Positions 3,517-9,962 of a stretch of 37,125 nt of DNA are shown here, piece after piece. This stretch comes from Veillonellaceae bacterium. GTDB taxonomy: Bacteria; Bacillota; Negativicutes; JAAYSF01. Each line of letters starts with the position of its first letter. Within the stretch, counting starts at the first letter, position 1. Under the pieces are notes generated by a model. It was not told where the DNA came from, made no database searches, and worked only from the letters and a program-made list of their open reading frames with translations. Made by a program: the position numbers and the translations under genes. Where the stretch lies: contig JAAYSF010000003.1 in the NCBI GenBank assembly GCA_012523975.1, positions 1 through 37,125 of the forward strand. The letters run 5' to 3'.

Positions 3517-3565
3517 TGGCCTACCTTTCATAAAATATACCAAATATATTTTATGAGGTAGGCCA
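3517..3565. repeat. Long imperfect palindrome (about 21-bp stem)
   Basis: The arm at 3517-3539 (TGGCCTACC, then TTTCATAAAATATA) pairs with 3545-3565 (TATATTTTATGA, then GGTAGGCCA), with a 2-nt bulge and a CCAAA loop. The right arm contains GAGG (3555-3558) and ends on the A of an ATG. It may be an end of a small mobile element or a hairpin that hides the ribosome site of the following ORF. It has no T-run, so it is not a standard terminator. Confidence 0.75.
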
Positions 3566-3870
3566 TGATTATTTCTAAGTATAGTGGTAATGTTGTTGGT
3601 TACTTGGATTATTATGCAGGTATTGAGAAGCGTGTTAGTGCTGTTGCTAGGACTGCTCGCTCGCAAAGGGTAAGGCGTGATGGTGGATGGCCTGATATGC
3701 TAGTGGGTGAATATGTTCGATTTTGCCGCGCTCAGGGAAGCGCTGTGAAGTTTATTAAACGGACTGGGATAAGTAAGCCGAAGTCGTGTGCTCACATCGG
3801 TATTTATGACTGCTGCGGGGTTTATCGGCGTTATTATGGGATTGGCCGGTTATTGGATATAAGAATATAA
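3565..3870 (+). pseudogene. Unclear ORF, perhaps a decayed small membrane protein gene
   Basis: The open frame from the ATG at 3565 gives 101 residues rich in Arg, Tyr, Cys and Gly that I do not recognise; the composition looks like out-of-frame translation. The +1 frame is stop-interrupted but gives two convincing hydrophobic segments: SIVVMLLVTWIIM with VLVLLLGLLARKG (3578-3673), and VFMTAAGFIGVIMGLAGYWI ending at about 3868. Stops at about 3671, 3692, 3737 and 3761 separate them. I infer a degraded membrane-protein gene, but two or more very small real ORFs are also possible. No function can be given. Confidence 0.3.
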
Positions 3871-4474: not shown

Positions 4475-4900
4475 TTGTCATCATCGCAGTTTTCAATGAA
4501 GAAAGAGTATTTACTTGAAATATACGACCGCAACCCGTTTGTACAGTTCTTAGAGATGAAGATTGCTGATTTGAAAGAAGGTTATTCTGAGCTTATCATG
4601 CCGGTTGACACCGAGAAGCACACCAATCTCTATAATTTAGCGCATGGCGGGGCATTGGCATCGCTGGCTGATACCGCAATGGGGATTGCTTGCGCAACTA
4701 TCGGCAACAAGGTCGTTACTTTAGATATGAATATGAACTTTATCAAGGGCGCTAAGCCTCAAATGGGTCTTAAAGGTGTGGGCAAGGTGATACATACCGG
4801 CAGAACTACTATGGTTGCCGAGGCCGATATAATCGATGAAGACGGTAATTTAATCCTCAAGGCACGTGGGACTTTTTTTGTTATTGGAAAGTTTGAATAG
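4475..4900 (+). CDS. Hotdog-fold thioesterase, PaaI family
   Basis: 141 residues, the usual length. The hotdog signature is clear: NLAHGGALASLADTAMGIA (about residues 49-67), in which the HGG and the downstream Asp are the parts associated with thioester binding and catalysis in PaaI-type enzymes. These enzymes hydrolyse acyl-CoA or aryl-CoA thioesters in the cytoplasm, often as a clean-up activity. Start is TTG at 4475 with TAGGAGG 7 bases upstream; the ribosome site overlaps the stop of the Uma2 remnant, so the two were an operon. The substrate cannot be told from sequence. Confidence 0.88.
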   Translation: MSSSQFSMKKEYLLEIYDRNPFVQFLEMKIADLKEGYSELIMPVDTEKHTNLYNLAHGGALASLADTAMGIACATIGNKVVTLDMNMNFIKGAKPQMGLKGVGKVIHTGRTTMVAEADIIDEDGNLILKARGTFFVIGKFE

Positions 4901-4926: not shown

Positions 4927-4955
4927 TTGCATTTTTCTGGTATGGCTTCTATAAT
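4927..4955 (+). promoter_or_regulatory. Strong sigma-A promoter of the structured RNA
   Basis: TTGCAT (4927-4932), 17-bp spacer, TATAAT (4950-4955). Transcription should begin near 4962, just before the RNA's folded region. There is no start codon with a ribosome site close behind it. Confidence 0.85.
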
Positions 4956-4961
4956 TTAAGC

Positions 4962-5203
4962 TAAGAACCAATTTGCTTAGGTCTGTGGTTGAAAATCGAT
5001 GCCAGTCGCAGGCGAAACGATCCACGTAAGAAGCCCAAAGTAGGCTTTGAGCATGGTGCGGCTTAGAAGTAAGCCCTGCCGGGCAGTTGTATAAAATAAT
5101 TAGTAGTCCGAGAGGAGTAGTAGTGAGGGGTTAGGTCCTAGTAGCAAACCTCCCAGCAGGCGAGTGTGGGGTCAAAGACCAGGTCGGCTAAGCAAGGGTT
5201 TTT
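4962..5203 (+). ncRNA. Structured non-coding RNA, about 240 nt; raiA-motif RNA suspected
   Basis: No ORF, own promoter and dense base pairing. Closing stem TTGCTTAG (4973-4980) with CTAAGCAA (5188-5195), followed by GGGTTTTT. Inside: GTGG (4985) with CCAC (5022), enclosing ATCG/CGAT and GCC/GGC with A-rich internal loops; AAGCC/GGCTT (5031/5043); a 6-bp stem GGCTTA-GAAG-TAAGCC (5060-5075); CTGC/GCAG (5076-5086); GGGGTT with AACCTC (5127/5147). CCTGC (5075) could also pair with GCAGG (5156), a possible pseudoknot. Size, Firmicute host and closeness to a flagellar cluster and hpf (raiA) suggest the raiA motif, but I cannot align it to a covariance model. 6S RNA is the main alternative; it is not SRP RNA, tmRNA or RNase P by their conserved motifs. 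Confidence 0.7.
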
Positions 5204-5232
5204 AATCTGCATAAGGTGAGGGGATTTCTTTA

Positions 5233-5562
5233 ATGGCTTTCCAGGACAAAACTCTGAAATGCAAAGAGTGCGGGAAAGATTTCGTTTTCACCGTAGGTGA
5301 ACAGCAATTTTATGCTGAGAAGGGATTCGAAAACGAACCTGCACGCTGCCGCGAATGTCGCGATATTAGACGCCGGAATCGTGAGGGCGGCGAGGGTCGT
5401 ACAGCGCAGCGCGAAATGCATGAAGCGGTATGCGCTCAATGCGGCGTGGTGACTCAAGTACCTTTTAAACCGCGAAATGATCGTCCTATCTTTTGCCGTG
5501 ATTGTTTTAATGCTCGTCGGGAACAAGAAGAAGCACAAGCTCAAACAGCTGCAGATAATTAG
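5233..5562 (+). CDS. Zinc-ribbon protein with two CxxC pairs plus a second finger
   Basis: 109 residues. The first zinc ribbon uses CKECG (about 10-14) and CRECR (about 38-42). The second uses CAQCG (about 71-75) and CRDCF (about 92-96). Both match the probable zinc-ribbon family (zf-trcl and relatives) often seen in Firmicutes; function is unknown, with nucleic-acid binding as a reasonable guess. The C-terminus is Gln/Ala-rich. The ATG follows AAGGTGAGGGG. No promoter lies between the structured RNA and this gene, so it probably relies on read-through past the RNA's 3' end. Confidence 0.8.
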   Translation: MAFQDKTLKCKECGKDFVFTVGEQQFYAEKGFENEPARCRECRDIRRRNREGGEGRTAQREMHEAVCAQCGVVTQVPFKPRNDRPIFCRDCFNARREQEEAQAQTAADN

Positions 5563-5581
5563 TTTCTTGACTAGGAACAAC

Positions 5582-5610
5582 GCCCGGGTTAAACCGGGCT
5601 TATTTATTTT
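5582..5610 (+). terminator. Rho-independent terminator
   Basis: GCCCGG (5582-5587), 6-nt loop, CCGGGC (5594-5599), then a T-rich tail. It separates the zinc-ribbon gene from the transporter. Confidence 0.8.
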
Positions 5611-5689: not shown

Positions 5690-6469
5690 TTGTCTAAAAA
5701 GATTATTGCACTTATCGTTTTAGGAATGTTTGTAATGGCATTGGGATTGGCAGGCTGCGGCTCGGAAAAGTCAGCTGCGCCGGAGAAGAAGGTTATCAGA
5801 GTTGGTTCTGAGACGGCATTTGCTCCGTTTGAGTTCCAAGATGAAAAGACTAAAGAATACACTGGTTTTGATATGGATTTGATCAGAGCGATCGGCAAGC
5901 AAATGGGTTATGAGGTAGAAATCGTAAGCATGGGCTTTGATGGTCTGATTCCGGCACTTGAGGCTGGCAATATCGACGTTATTGCTTCGGGTATGACAAT
6001 CACTGAAGAACGGGCTAAGAAAGTTAACTTCTCCAATCCTTACTATAAATCGGGTCTGACCATTGTTGTTAAGAGCGACAATAATACCATTAAGAGCTTT
6101 AAAGACCTGGAAGGCAAAAATATTGCCGTACAAATCGGTACAACCGGCGCTAGAGAAGCTAGCAAGGTTAAAAATGCTAAAGTCCGCGAATTCAACAATC
6201 CGCCTGAGGCTTTTATGGAACTTAAAGCTGGCGGCGTAGACGCTGTAATCAATGACAAACCCGTTAACGATTACTTCATCGCTCAGTCTGGCAGCAAAGA
6301 CGCTAAGGTTGTCGGTGAGCCGCTGACTTCGGAAGATTATGGTTTAGCTACTTCCAAGAAAAATGCTGAGCTTGGCGAGAAAATCAACAAAGCTTTGGAT
6401 GAGCTCAAGAAGAACGGCGAATATGAAAAAATCTACGTAAAATGGTTCGGGGTTAAACCGGCAAACTAA
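5690..6469 (+). CDS. Amino-acid ABC transporter substrate-binding lipoprotein (copy 1)
   Basis: 259 residues. Lipoprotein signal peptide with lipobox LAGC, lipidated Cys at 23. The mature part is a type-II periplasmic binding fold of the polar amino-acid family (SBP_bac_3, GlnH/HisJ-like): FAPFEFQDEKTKEYTGFDMDLIRAI, then MGFDGLIPALEAGNIDVIASGMTIT and VNFSNPYYKSG. It captures an amino acid outside the membrane for the permease encoded downstream. Start is TTG at 5690 with GAGGGGG upstream. It has its own promoter and is a tandem paralogue of the gene at 6625. Exact ligand cannot be read from sequence. Confidence 0.92.
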   Translation: MSKKIIALIVLGMFVMALGLAGCGSEKSAAPEKKVIRVGSETAFAPFEFQDEKTKEYTGFDMDLIRAIGKQMGYEVEIVSMGFDGLIPALEAGNIDVIASGMTITEERAKKVNFSNPYYKSGLTIVVKSDNNTIKSFKDLEGKNIAVQIGTTGAREASKVKNAKVREFNNPPEAFMELKAGGVDAVINDKPVNDYFIAQSGSKDAKVVGEPLTSEDYGLATSKKNAELGEKINKALDELKKNGEYEKIYVKWFGVKPAN

Positions 6470-6504
6470 GACTAATACTGAAAACTGCAGTAAAAGTGAG
6501 CAAA

Positions 6505-6537
6505 GAGTGCTATGTTATGTCATAGCACTCTTTTTTA
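6505..6537 (+). terminator. Strong rho-independent terminator
   Basis: A 10-bp stem (GAGTGCTATG with CATAGCACTC), TTATGT loop and TTTTTTATT tail. It isolates the first binding protein gene from the second. Confidence 0.92.
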
Positions 6538-6561
6538 TTGGATTGGCCGAAATTGTCGAGG

Positions 6562-6589
6562 TTGCTGAGTATGTAAAAAGCTGTATAAT
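6562..6589 (+). promoter_or_regulatory. Promoter of the second binding protein
   Basis: TTGCTG (6562-6567), 16-bp spacer, TATAAT (6584-6589). The -10 sits in CTGTATAATTAT, which matches the left arm of the 5642 operator. The right arm is degenerate here. Confidence 0.6.
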
Positions 6590-6624
6590 TATTTATGTAA
6601 ACTTAAATCATAGGAGGTTTTACA

Positions 6625-7395
6625 GTGTCTAAAAAGACAATAGCACTGCTAGTTTTGGCCTTTTTTGTCCTGACTTTAGGCTTGGCTGGCTGCAGTAAAC
6701 AGGAAACGCCGGCTCAGTCCAAAGTTTTAAGAGTAGGAGCTGAGGCTACTTTCCCGCCGTTTGAATTCCAAGATGAAAAAACTAAAGAATATACCGGTTT
6801 TGACATTGATCTTGCCAAGGCTGTCGGTAAGCAAATGGGTTATCAGGTTGAAATTCAGAACATGGGCTTCGACGGACTGATTCCGGCGCTGCAAACCGGT
6901 TCGATTGACATGGTTGCATCAGCGATGAGCATTACTGATGAGCGGTCCCAGAAGGTTAATTTTTCTCAGCCTTACTATAAATCCGGATTGTCGATTGTTG
7001 TTAAGAAAGACAACACTACAATAAACAGCTTTAAAGATCTGGAAGGCAAACGCATTGCCGTGCAAATTGGCACGACATCGGCTAAAGAAGCTCAAAAAAT
7101 AAAAAATGCGCAAGTTCGTGAGTTCAACAGCAACTCCGAGGCTTACATGGAACTTGTAAACGGCGGTGCTGACGCTGTTGTAAACGATCTTCCTGTTAAC
7201 CAATACTATTTAGCTCAAACCGACGGCAAGGACGCTAAGCTGGTTGGTGAGGTTGCCAATGCCGAAGATTACGGCTTGGCTGTCGCTAAGAATAATAAAG
7301 AACTTGCCGACAAAGTCAACAAGGCTTTAGATGAGCTCAAGAAGAACGGCGAGTATGATAAGATTTATCAAAAATGGTTTGGCAATAAGAAGTAA
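6625..7395 (+). CDS. Amino-acid ABC transporter substrate-binding lipoprotein (copy 2)
   Basis: 256 residues, close paralogue of the preceding gene along its whole length, including the signal peptide (MSKKxIAL) and the C-terminal DELKKNGEYDKIYxKWFG. Lipobox LAGC, Cys 23. The core ligand motifs are FPPFEFQDEKTKEYTGFDIDLAKAVG and INFDGLIPAL-type segments. Differences between the copies lie mostly between about residues 125 and 220, in the second lobe, so ligand range or affinity may differ. GTG start with TAGGAGG 7 bases upstream. It is transcribed from its own promoter and lies nearest the permease and ATPase genes. Confidence 0.92.
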   Translation: MSKKTIALLVLAFFVLTLGLAGCSKQETPAQSKVLRVGAEATFPPFEFQDEKTKEYTGFDIDLAKAVGKQMGYQVEIQNMGFDGLIPALQTGSIDMVASAMSITDERSQKVNFSQPYYKSGLSIVVKKDNTTINSFKDLEGKRIAVQIGTTSAKEAQKIKNAQVREFNSNSEAYMELVNGGADAVVNDLPVNQYYLAQTDGKDAKLVGEVANAEDYGLAVAKNNKELADKVNKALDELKKNGEYDKIYQKWFGNKK

Positions 7396-8195: not shown

Positions 8196-8901
8196 AAATG
8201 TTCATAAAAAGTTTGGTAAGCTGCATGTTTTAAAGGGCATTAATGCTCATATTAAAGAAAAAGAAGTGGTCGTTATTATCGGGCCTAGCGGTTCCGGTAA
8301 AAGTACGCTGCTGCGCTGTATGAATTATCTGGAAGAACCGACCGAAGGTGAAATTATTGTAGACGGAATCTCGCTGACGAGTGAGTCCAATATCAATAAG
8401 GTGCGTGAAGAAGTCGGCATGGTGTTCCAGCGATTTAATTTGTTTCCGCATATGTCGGTACTTGAAAACATCATGCTGGCTCCTATAAAGGTCCGTAAGA
8501 TGCCAAAGGCTGACGCTGAGAAGATAGCAATGGATCTTCTTGCCAAGGTTGGACTAACTGATAAGGCCAATGCTTATCCTGAGCAATTGTCCGGCGGACA
8601 GCAGCAGCGGGTGGCGATTGCCCGCGCTTTGGCCATGAAGCCTAAGGTTATGTTGTTTGATGAGCCGACTTCAGCTCTCGATCCTGAGATGATTAACGAG
8701 GTGCTTGATGTCATGAAGGCGTTGGCAAAAGAAGGTATGACCATGGCTGTTGTTACCCACGAAATGGGCTTTGCCCGTGAAGTAGGCGACAGAGTTATCT
8801 TTATGGACGAAGGCCGGATTGTTGAAGAAGGTTCGCCGGATGCCATTTTTAGTTCAGCTAAGGAAGAACGGACCAAAGCCTTTTTATCGAAAATTCTCTA
8901 A
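8182..8901 (+). CDS. Amino-acid ABC transporter ATP-binding protein (GlnQ/HisP type)
   Basis: 239 residues. Walker [10 protein letters not shown] (34-42), Q-loop [14 protein letters not shown] signature LSGGQQQR, Walker [14 protein letters not shown] and H-loop VVTHEMGFA are all intact. The [14 protein letters not shown] forms are typical of the polar amino-acid importer ATPases. It powers uptake together with the permease and the two lipoproteins upstream. ATG start within the end of the permease gene, with GGAGCGGAGG upstream, so the two proteins are translationally coupled. Confidence 0.95.
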
Positions 8902-8936
8902 TGTAAAAAATTAACAGCCAAAGACGCCGTATTACG

Positions 8937-8965
8937 TTGACAGTTATACCCAGAAGTGGTATACT
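8937..8965 (+). promoter_or_regulatory. Sigma-A promoter of the cold-shock gene
   Basis: TTGACA (8937-8942), 17-bp spacer, TATACT (8960-8965). It gives a 5' untranslated leader of about 55-60 nt before the ATG at 9030. Confidence 0.85.
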
Positions 8966-9029
8966 TAGATTCGTGGTCATTAAAAATAGTAGTATGACCT
9001 GTAGTTTTATTTTAGGAGGAATTTTCAGG

Positions 9030-9227
9030 ATGATTGGTAAAGTTAAATGGTTCAGCGCTGAAAAGGGTTATGGATTTATCGAAAGAGAAGACGGTGGCGA
9101 CGTATTCGTTCACTTCTCAGCTATCCAAGAAGACGGCTTCAAAACTTTAGTTGAAGGTCAAGAAGTTAACTTCGACATCGTTGAAGGCGCTCGTGGACCT
9201 CAAGCAGCTAACGTAACTAAAGCATAA
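9030..9227 (+). CDS. cspA: Cold-shock protein, CspA family
   Basis: 65 residues, a single OB-fold cold-shock domain. RNP1 is KGYGFIE (12-18) and RNP2 is VFVHFSAI (about 25-32). CSPs bind single-stranded RNA and DNA and melt RNA secondary structure, aiding translation at low temperature and transcription antitermination. ATG start with TAGGAGG 10 bases upstream; a longer upstream frame to 8937 exists but covers the promoter, so it is rejected. Single-gene unit with its own promoter and terminator. Many Firmicutes carry several copies, so the numbering is uncertain. Confidence 0.93.
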
Positions 9228-9240
9228 TAATGTTAAAAAT

Positions 9241-9267
9241 AAACCCGGCTAATTAGCCGGGTTTTTT
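9241..9267 (+). terminator. Rho-independent terminator of csp
   Basis: CCCGGCT-AATT-AGCCGGG stem flanked by AAA and TTTTTT. It is near-symmetric but the next gene is also on the plus strand. Confidence 0.92.
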
Positions 9268-9364
9268 GATAGCCTTGTACTGTAAAACAAGTGACCAAAT
9301 AAGTAAAATTCTTACATAAAGTGTTTATTTTTGTGAAAATTTCATAAATAAACTTTAATTTTGT

Positions 9365-9428: not shown

Positions 9429-9962
9429 ATGGCTATAACAGTTAGAGGAAAAAACATTGACATCACACCAGCATTAAAAGACTATGTAGAAAAGCGTGTC
9501 GGCAAGGTCACTAAGTATTTCGACTCGCTTGGCGAAATCACCGTTCTCCTCACCGTTGAGAAAGGCAGTCACATTGTCGAGGTAACAGTACCGGTTAATG
9601 GTATGTTGCTTAGAGGTGAAGAATCAACCACTGATATGTACACCTCAATCGACCTGGTAATTGAGAAACTTGAAAGGCAAATTGAGAAATATAAAACTAA
9701 GTTAGCGCGCAAGCTGCGCAGTGGTTTCATTAAAGGCGAGCCGGCGCCAAGCGTCGGTATGACGGCAGACGAGAACGATGATTTTAAAATCGTCAAAACC
9801 AAGCGCTTTGCTGTCAAGCCGATGGATGTTCAAGAAGCCGTTATGCAAATGAATCTTATCAATCACGACTTTTACGTTTTCACCAATGCTGAGACCGAAG
9901 ACGTCAATGTGGTCTATCGTCGTAAGGATGGAAACTACGGCTTGATTGAGCCGGAGTTCTAG
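9429..9962 (+). CDS. hpf: Ribosome hibernation promoting factor, long form
   Basis: 177 residues, typical of long HPF. The N-terminal RaiA/HPF domain (1 to about 100) begins ITVRGKNIDITPALKDYVEKRVGKV and should bind the 30S decoding centre. A linker follows. The C-terminal domain (about 120-177: KTKRFAVKPMDVQEAVMQMNLINHDFYVF) is the dimerisation module that joins two 70S ribosomes into inactive 100S particles. AAGGGGG lies about 10 bases before the ATG. It is monocistronic, ended by a strong two-way terminator. Confidence 0.95.
   Translation: MAITVRGKNIDITPALKDYVEKRVGKVTKYFDSLGEITVLLTVEKGSHIVEVTVPVNGMLLRGEESTTDMYTSIDLVIEKLERQIEKYKTKLARKLRSGFIKGEPAPSVGMTADENDDFKIVKTKRFAVKPMDVQEAVMQMNLINHDFYVFTNAETEDVNVVYRRKDGNYGLIEPEF

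Follow-up and report, generated by a model that had tools for sequence, protein, structure and literature searches.

Results and Discussion

The RNA encoded at positions 4972–5196 (forward strand) of the analysed Veillonellaceae DNA (37,125 nucleotides in all, hereafter the window) is a new copy of the already known raiA (ModT) family and not a new class of RNA. As judged from sequence comparison, this RNA would act in trans and at the same time form the 5′ part of an RNA-plus-mRNA unit, with a promoter of its own, an additional outer helix (P0) and a terminator-free link to the zinc-finger gene that follows it; we give this reading a probability of about 0.78. The zinc-finger link is not mentioned in the raiA accounts PMC11477304 and PMC11706538, nor did it appear in text searches. 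It is undescribed in the literature examined, and its newness is not claimed with confidence.

Identity and Fold of the RNA

The Rfam covariance model RF03072 matched the window from end to end (model positions 1–209) with 202.3 bits (E 2.7e-52), which is about twice the gathering score of 101.3. The initial annotation had described a highly structured RNA without an ORF and read it as a raiA-motif RNA or, failing that, as a new class, had mentioned 6S RNA as being of similar size, and had proposed searches with the raiA and 6S models together with a covariation test in Negativicutes. The raiA assignment was borne out both by the match and by the covariation, and with the match the alternative of a new class was excluded. 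6S RNA, which is like the window RNA in its size, its promoter-driven transcription and its structured nature, was rejected, since no 6S match reached the Rfam gathering score within the window, where only raiA and cspA did so. No ORF of at least 60 amino acids was found between the thioesterase gene, which ends at 4900, and the zinc-finger gene. The RNA is present as a single copy in the source genome, and among 100 Negativicutes genomes 78 carried raiA RNA above the cut-off. Sporulation is absent from some of the bacteria with raiA RNA, for example Veillonella (loci L164 and L173).

The minimum free energy (MFE) fold of the segment 4962–5206 (245 nt) had an energy of −83.3 kcal/mol (z = −3.46 versus 200 shuffles) and contained the 8-bp stem (4962–4969/5197–5204) that had been proposed to join the two ends of the RNA. 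The covariation alignment was built from 30 relatives, with linked as well as unlinked families represented, and used the Rfam structure with one hairpin re-registered to fit the class. Across 11 helix segments, 92.3% of the cells were paired, and changes on both sides were seen in 27 of the 56 pairs, a number equalled in 0 of 500 shuffles. Doubly changed cells amounted to 232, versus 78 in the shuffles and 14–41 with the partner slid, where relatedness inflates the shuffle control and not the slid one. The published helices were thus supported by compensatory changes in Negativicutes, helix 5 of the Rfam model being poorly paired there (52.5%). Two pseudoknots, pk-1 and pk-2, have been published for the family, from C. 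acetobutylicum (PMC11751092); covariation is little informative on them because the raiA core sequence is nearly invariant in the Negativicutes set.

Promoter and Outer Helix P0

The promoter (4927–4955, forward strand), which is of the sigma-70 type, consists of a −35 box TTGCAT (4927–4932), a 17-nt spacer and a −10 box TATAAT (4950–4955); it is read directly from the DNA, as it had been in the initial annotation, and its distance is conserved in the gene-linked relatives. Every gene-linked Negativicutes locus has a promoter of the TTG-17/18-TATAAT type 13–18 nt before the RNA, and when linked and unlinked loci are taken together, it was found at 59 of 68 Negativicutes raiA loci. Transcription was predicted to start near 4962. 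In most linked loci 14–17 nt separate the end of the −10 box from the start of the Rfam model, so that the +1 is expected close to the first base of P0.

P0 is an extra helix located just outside the Rfam model, and was delineated by the MFE fold and a flank-swap test. Its 5′ strand, UAAGAACC (4962–4969, forward strand), is the predicted very 5′ end of the transcript, and its 3′ strand is GGUUUUUA (5197–5204, forward strand). In 23 loci the cognate flanks gave −5.9 kcal/mol, versus −4.6 when swapped between relatives and −2.5 when shuffled. The cognate mean was reached by 0 of 20,000 permutations, a figure that the related sequences make optimistic. Double-sided changes were observed as AAGAGGC/GCUUUUU in family f7 and as UUAAGAA/UUCUUAA in families f2 and f17. 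The outer helix P1 of the linked Clostridia has a wholly different sequence and still covaries (−13.8 for cognate versus −8.3 for swapped flanks).

The 3′ strand of P0 includes the T-run (5199–5203) which the initial annotation had taken for a tail right after the closing stem, and in this point the annotation has to be corrected. A free T-run terminator at 5199 was rejected, because the run is base-paired in P0 and many relatives have GGTCCTT in its place, and a consensus scan found no intrinsic terminator at this position. The first terminator found, GCCCGGGTTAAACCGGGC followed by TTATTTATTT (5582–5599, forward strand), lies only behind the zinc-finger gene and probably marks where the RNA-plus-gene unit stops. 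In a few species P0 together with the T-run might terminate transcription weakly (in the window, GGTTTTTAA), which would limit read-through.

Linkage to the Zinc-Finger Gene

The gene downstream of the RNA (5233–5562, forward strand) encodes a tandem treble-clef zinc-finger protein of 109 amino acids (PF13451, 79 bits; PF23477, 69 bits; TIGR04272). Its start codon lies 36 nt after the RNA, and its Shine-Dalgarno region, AAGGTGAGGGG (5213–5223, forward strand), is read directly and conserved in relatives. An orthologous gene was found directly 3′ of the raiA RNA in 41 of 68 Negativicutes loci, representing 19 of 25 families. One of the 41 loci is cut by a contig end, and among the 40 measured the spacing from the RNA to the start codon was 33–41 nt in 36, the remaining values being 62–66 nt (f10) and 117 nt (f16).

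A wider survey of 119 named raiA loci found the gene linked in 27, three from Negativicutes and the others from Clostridia, including Christensenella and Candidatus Onthenecus. The distance from the GGTC end to the ATG was 39–55 nt in 26 of these 27 loci, and the linked Clostridia differ little from Negativicutes in this respect. Among 60 relatives of the clostridial genome G100 (Christensenellales-like), raiA RNA was present in 38 and linked to the zinc-finger gene in 29, in which the PF23477 domain starts 187–212 nt after the RNA (coordinates compared by hand). Beyond these groups, many raiA RNAs have no such gene: none was seen next to the RNA at the named-set loci of Clostridium, Coriobacteriia and Acidimicrobiia, and PF23477 gave no match in the genomes of Clostridium carboxidivorans, Paraclostridium and Natroniella.

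A terminator-like hairpin within 100 nt after the RNA was found at none of 67 linked loci versus 30 of 118 unlinked ones (Fisher p 4e-7). The RNA and the zinc-finger mRNA probably arise from a single promoter. Published raiA RNAs are often hundreds of nucleotides from the next ORF, at long or variable distances, and lie mostly by comFC and raiA, their reported neighbours being comFC, raiA/hpf and periplasmic-binding-protein genes (PMC11477304, PMC11706538). The window RNA shares with the published family the full model match, the conserved core, its own promoter, the single copy and the hpf (raiA) gene downstream, but differs from it in the extra helix P0 and in the fixed, short and terminator-free link to the zinc-finger gene.

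The linkage is not universal. In families f15, f25, f28, f4 and f29 the RNA is present and the linked zinc-finger gene is not, and the reverse is seen in family f12, presumably Selenomonadaceae, in which raiA RNA was detected in 0 of 15 genomes and the zinc-finger protein falls inside the raiA-linked clade. Ten f12 loci were read, and most of them have a TTG-type promoter with a good −10 box, followed by some 100 nt of unrelated leader. Since either product is missing in some families, the distribution suggests that promoter, RNA and gene formed a single unit in the ancestor, which can be reduced by losing one product or the other.

Within these f12 loci (L217–L226), some share the motifs GACGTTC and GGACATCTA, a possible small replacement structure. 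In locus L090 (genome G009, contig C40, 118506–118610) about half of the raiA core is lost, while the promoter, P0, P1 and the zinc-finger gene are kept; the very short raiA match of this genome was traced to this internal deletion, which is either natural decay or an assembly error. A second very short match, in genome G033, was discarded as an assembly gap of Ns.

Proposed Mechanism and Alternative Readings

In the proposed RNA-plus-mRNA unit, the single promoter would transcribe the RNA and the zinc-finger gene together, from about 4962 to 5610, and both RNA and protein output would follow it. The 5′ end of the transcript would be buried in P0, in keeping with the stability that has been reported for ModT (PMC11706538). 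The folded RNA would then be cut free or protected from decay and would take part in the growth transition as a trans-acting RNA, the role described for ModT, whereas the downstream part would be translated into the zinc-finger protein, the unit ending in its own terminator. In C. difficile and C. acetobutylicum, ModT is an abundant RNA on which growth transition and sporulation depend; its deletions were complemented in trans in C. difficile, and action in trans was also reported for C. acetobutylicum (PMC11706538). The linkage probably reflects a functional coupling, that is, the same regulation, and not an obligate RNA-protein partnership, because RNA and gene each occur without the other. 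An obligate pair was rejected on account of the families that have only one of the two. The short conserved spacing can also have selection for compactness as its cause.

We consider, tentatively and at rather low probability, that a dual RNA-mRNA transcript exists in Negativicutes and in Christensenellales-like Clostridia in which the treble-clef protein is a functional partner of the RNA, through binding or in the growth transition. If true, this would provide a first genetic handle on what the abundant raiA RNA works with. A candidate protein comes from the link itself, which is fixed, lacks a terminator and joins the RNA to a single protein subfamily in two classes; the survey also reveals lineages in which RNA and gene are naturally separated.

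That the protein is a dedicated binder of raiA RNA, as OapA is for OLE RNA, appears doubtful. The linked zinc-finger proteins of both classes form one clade (support 100/98), apart from the unlinked paralogs, in a tree with few columns and weak inner forks whose unlinked set is from Negativicutes only, bar one clostridial protein. The two Cys4 treble clefs and the basic linker RRRNREGGEGR of the protein would suit RNA binding, and probing in vivo has given first indications that proteins are present on ModT (PMC11706538). OLE RNA and OapA offer the precedent of a structured RNA that works with a dedicated protein (a comparison taken from PMC11706538), but OLE is another RNA family, and in the raiA case RNA and gene are separable, as the families retaining only one of them testify, and binding is putative. 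Fold comparison of the zinc-finger protein likewise yielded no informative relative (best Z 2.9). A relationship with C2H2 proteins suggested by PDB sequence matches was discarded, as these look like similarity of CxxC repeats and fold searches did not exceed Z 2.9. For a weak Foldseek match to a Methanosarcina 70S complex with SriA/SriB, sequence and literature searches gave nothing.

It is unlikely that in this lineage the raiA RNA is a riboswitch-like leader controlling translation or transcription of the zinc-finger gene, although the Rfam type of RF03072 is Cis-reg; riboswitch, refolding of ModT in vivo has been reported (PMC11706538), and the spacing of 33–41 nt to the start codon is fixed in most of the 19 families and similar in Clostridia. 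An expression platform was sought in the linked loci: none of the 67 has a terminator that could be switched, and the Shine-Dalgarno sequence, with the 3′ strand of P1/P0 freed, was not hidden beyond the level of shuffled upstream sequences (mean rank 0.41 in Negativicutes and 0.55 in Clostridia), so that a Shine-Dalgarno-sequestering switch was rejected. Both results speak against a simple riboswitch and not against a subtler coupling. Complementation in trans of the deletions in other species (PMC11706538) argues in the same direction, as do the retention of the RNA in families without the gene and of the gene without the RNA in f12.

Adjacency by ancestry alone, with neither shared transcription nor shared function, is still less probable: the wider order of RNA, zinc-finger, SBP, csp, hpf and secA genes is also conserved in relatives, so that ancestry accounts for part of the adjacency, but the RNA-to-gene spacing is held within a few nucleotides where other distances vary by hundreds to thousands, terminators are absent at linked and frequent at unlinked loci, and the arrangement is kept in another class despite a different leader sequence. 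The RNA-plus-mRNA unit under one promoter is the reading that we retain.

Wider Locus

The gene for the hibernation factor hpf (raiA; PF02482, PF16321) was found at 9429–9962 on the forward strand, 4.2 kb downstream as the initial annotation had indicated, and lies outside the RNA-plus-zinc-finger unit. Flagellar genes are located upstream of the RNA, and with hpf the locus has a neighbourhood characteristic of the raiA motif; comFC is not among the genes adjoining the RNA. The second Rfam match of the window, to the cspA thermoregulator (8896–9269, 95 bits), aligns well in the csp coding sequence (ATG near 9030) and poorly in the 5′ UTR, which makes a thermosensor doubtful.

Between the flagellar genes and the remnant of a Uma2-type gene lies a segment (3517–3870) that comprises a 22-nt imperfect inverted repeat (3517–3538/3544–3565) and, directly after it, an ORF of 101 amino acids without a Pfam match. 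The Uma2-type gene itself (PF05685, 4060–4463) is apparently broken by a frame change into two overlapping ORFs, only the second of which matches the profile, and that in its C-terminal half only. After the zinc-finger gene, two tandem genes for solute-binding proteins of family 3 occupy positions 5690–7395, and genes of this kind recur beside the raiA RNA in many relatives.
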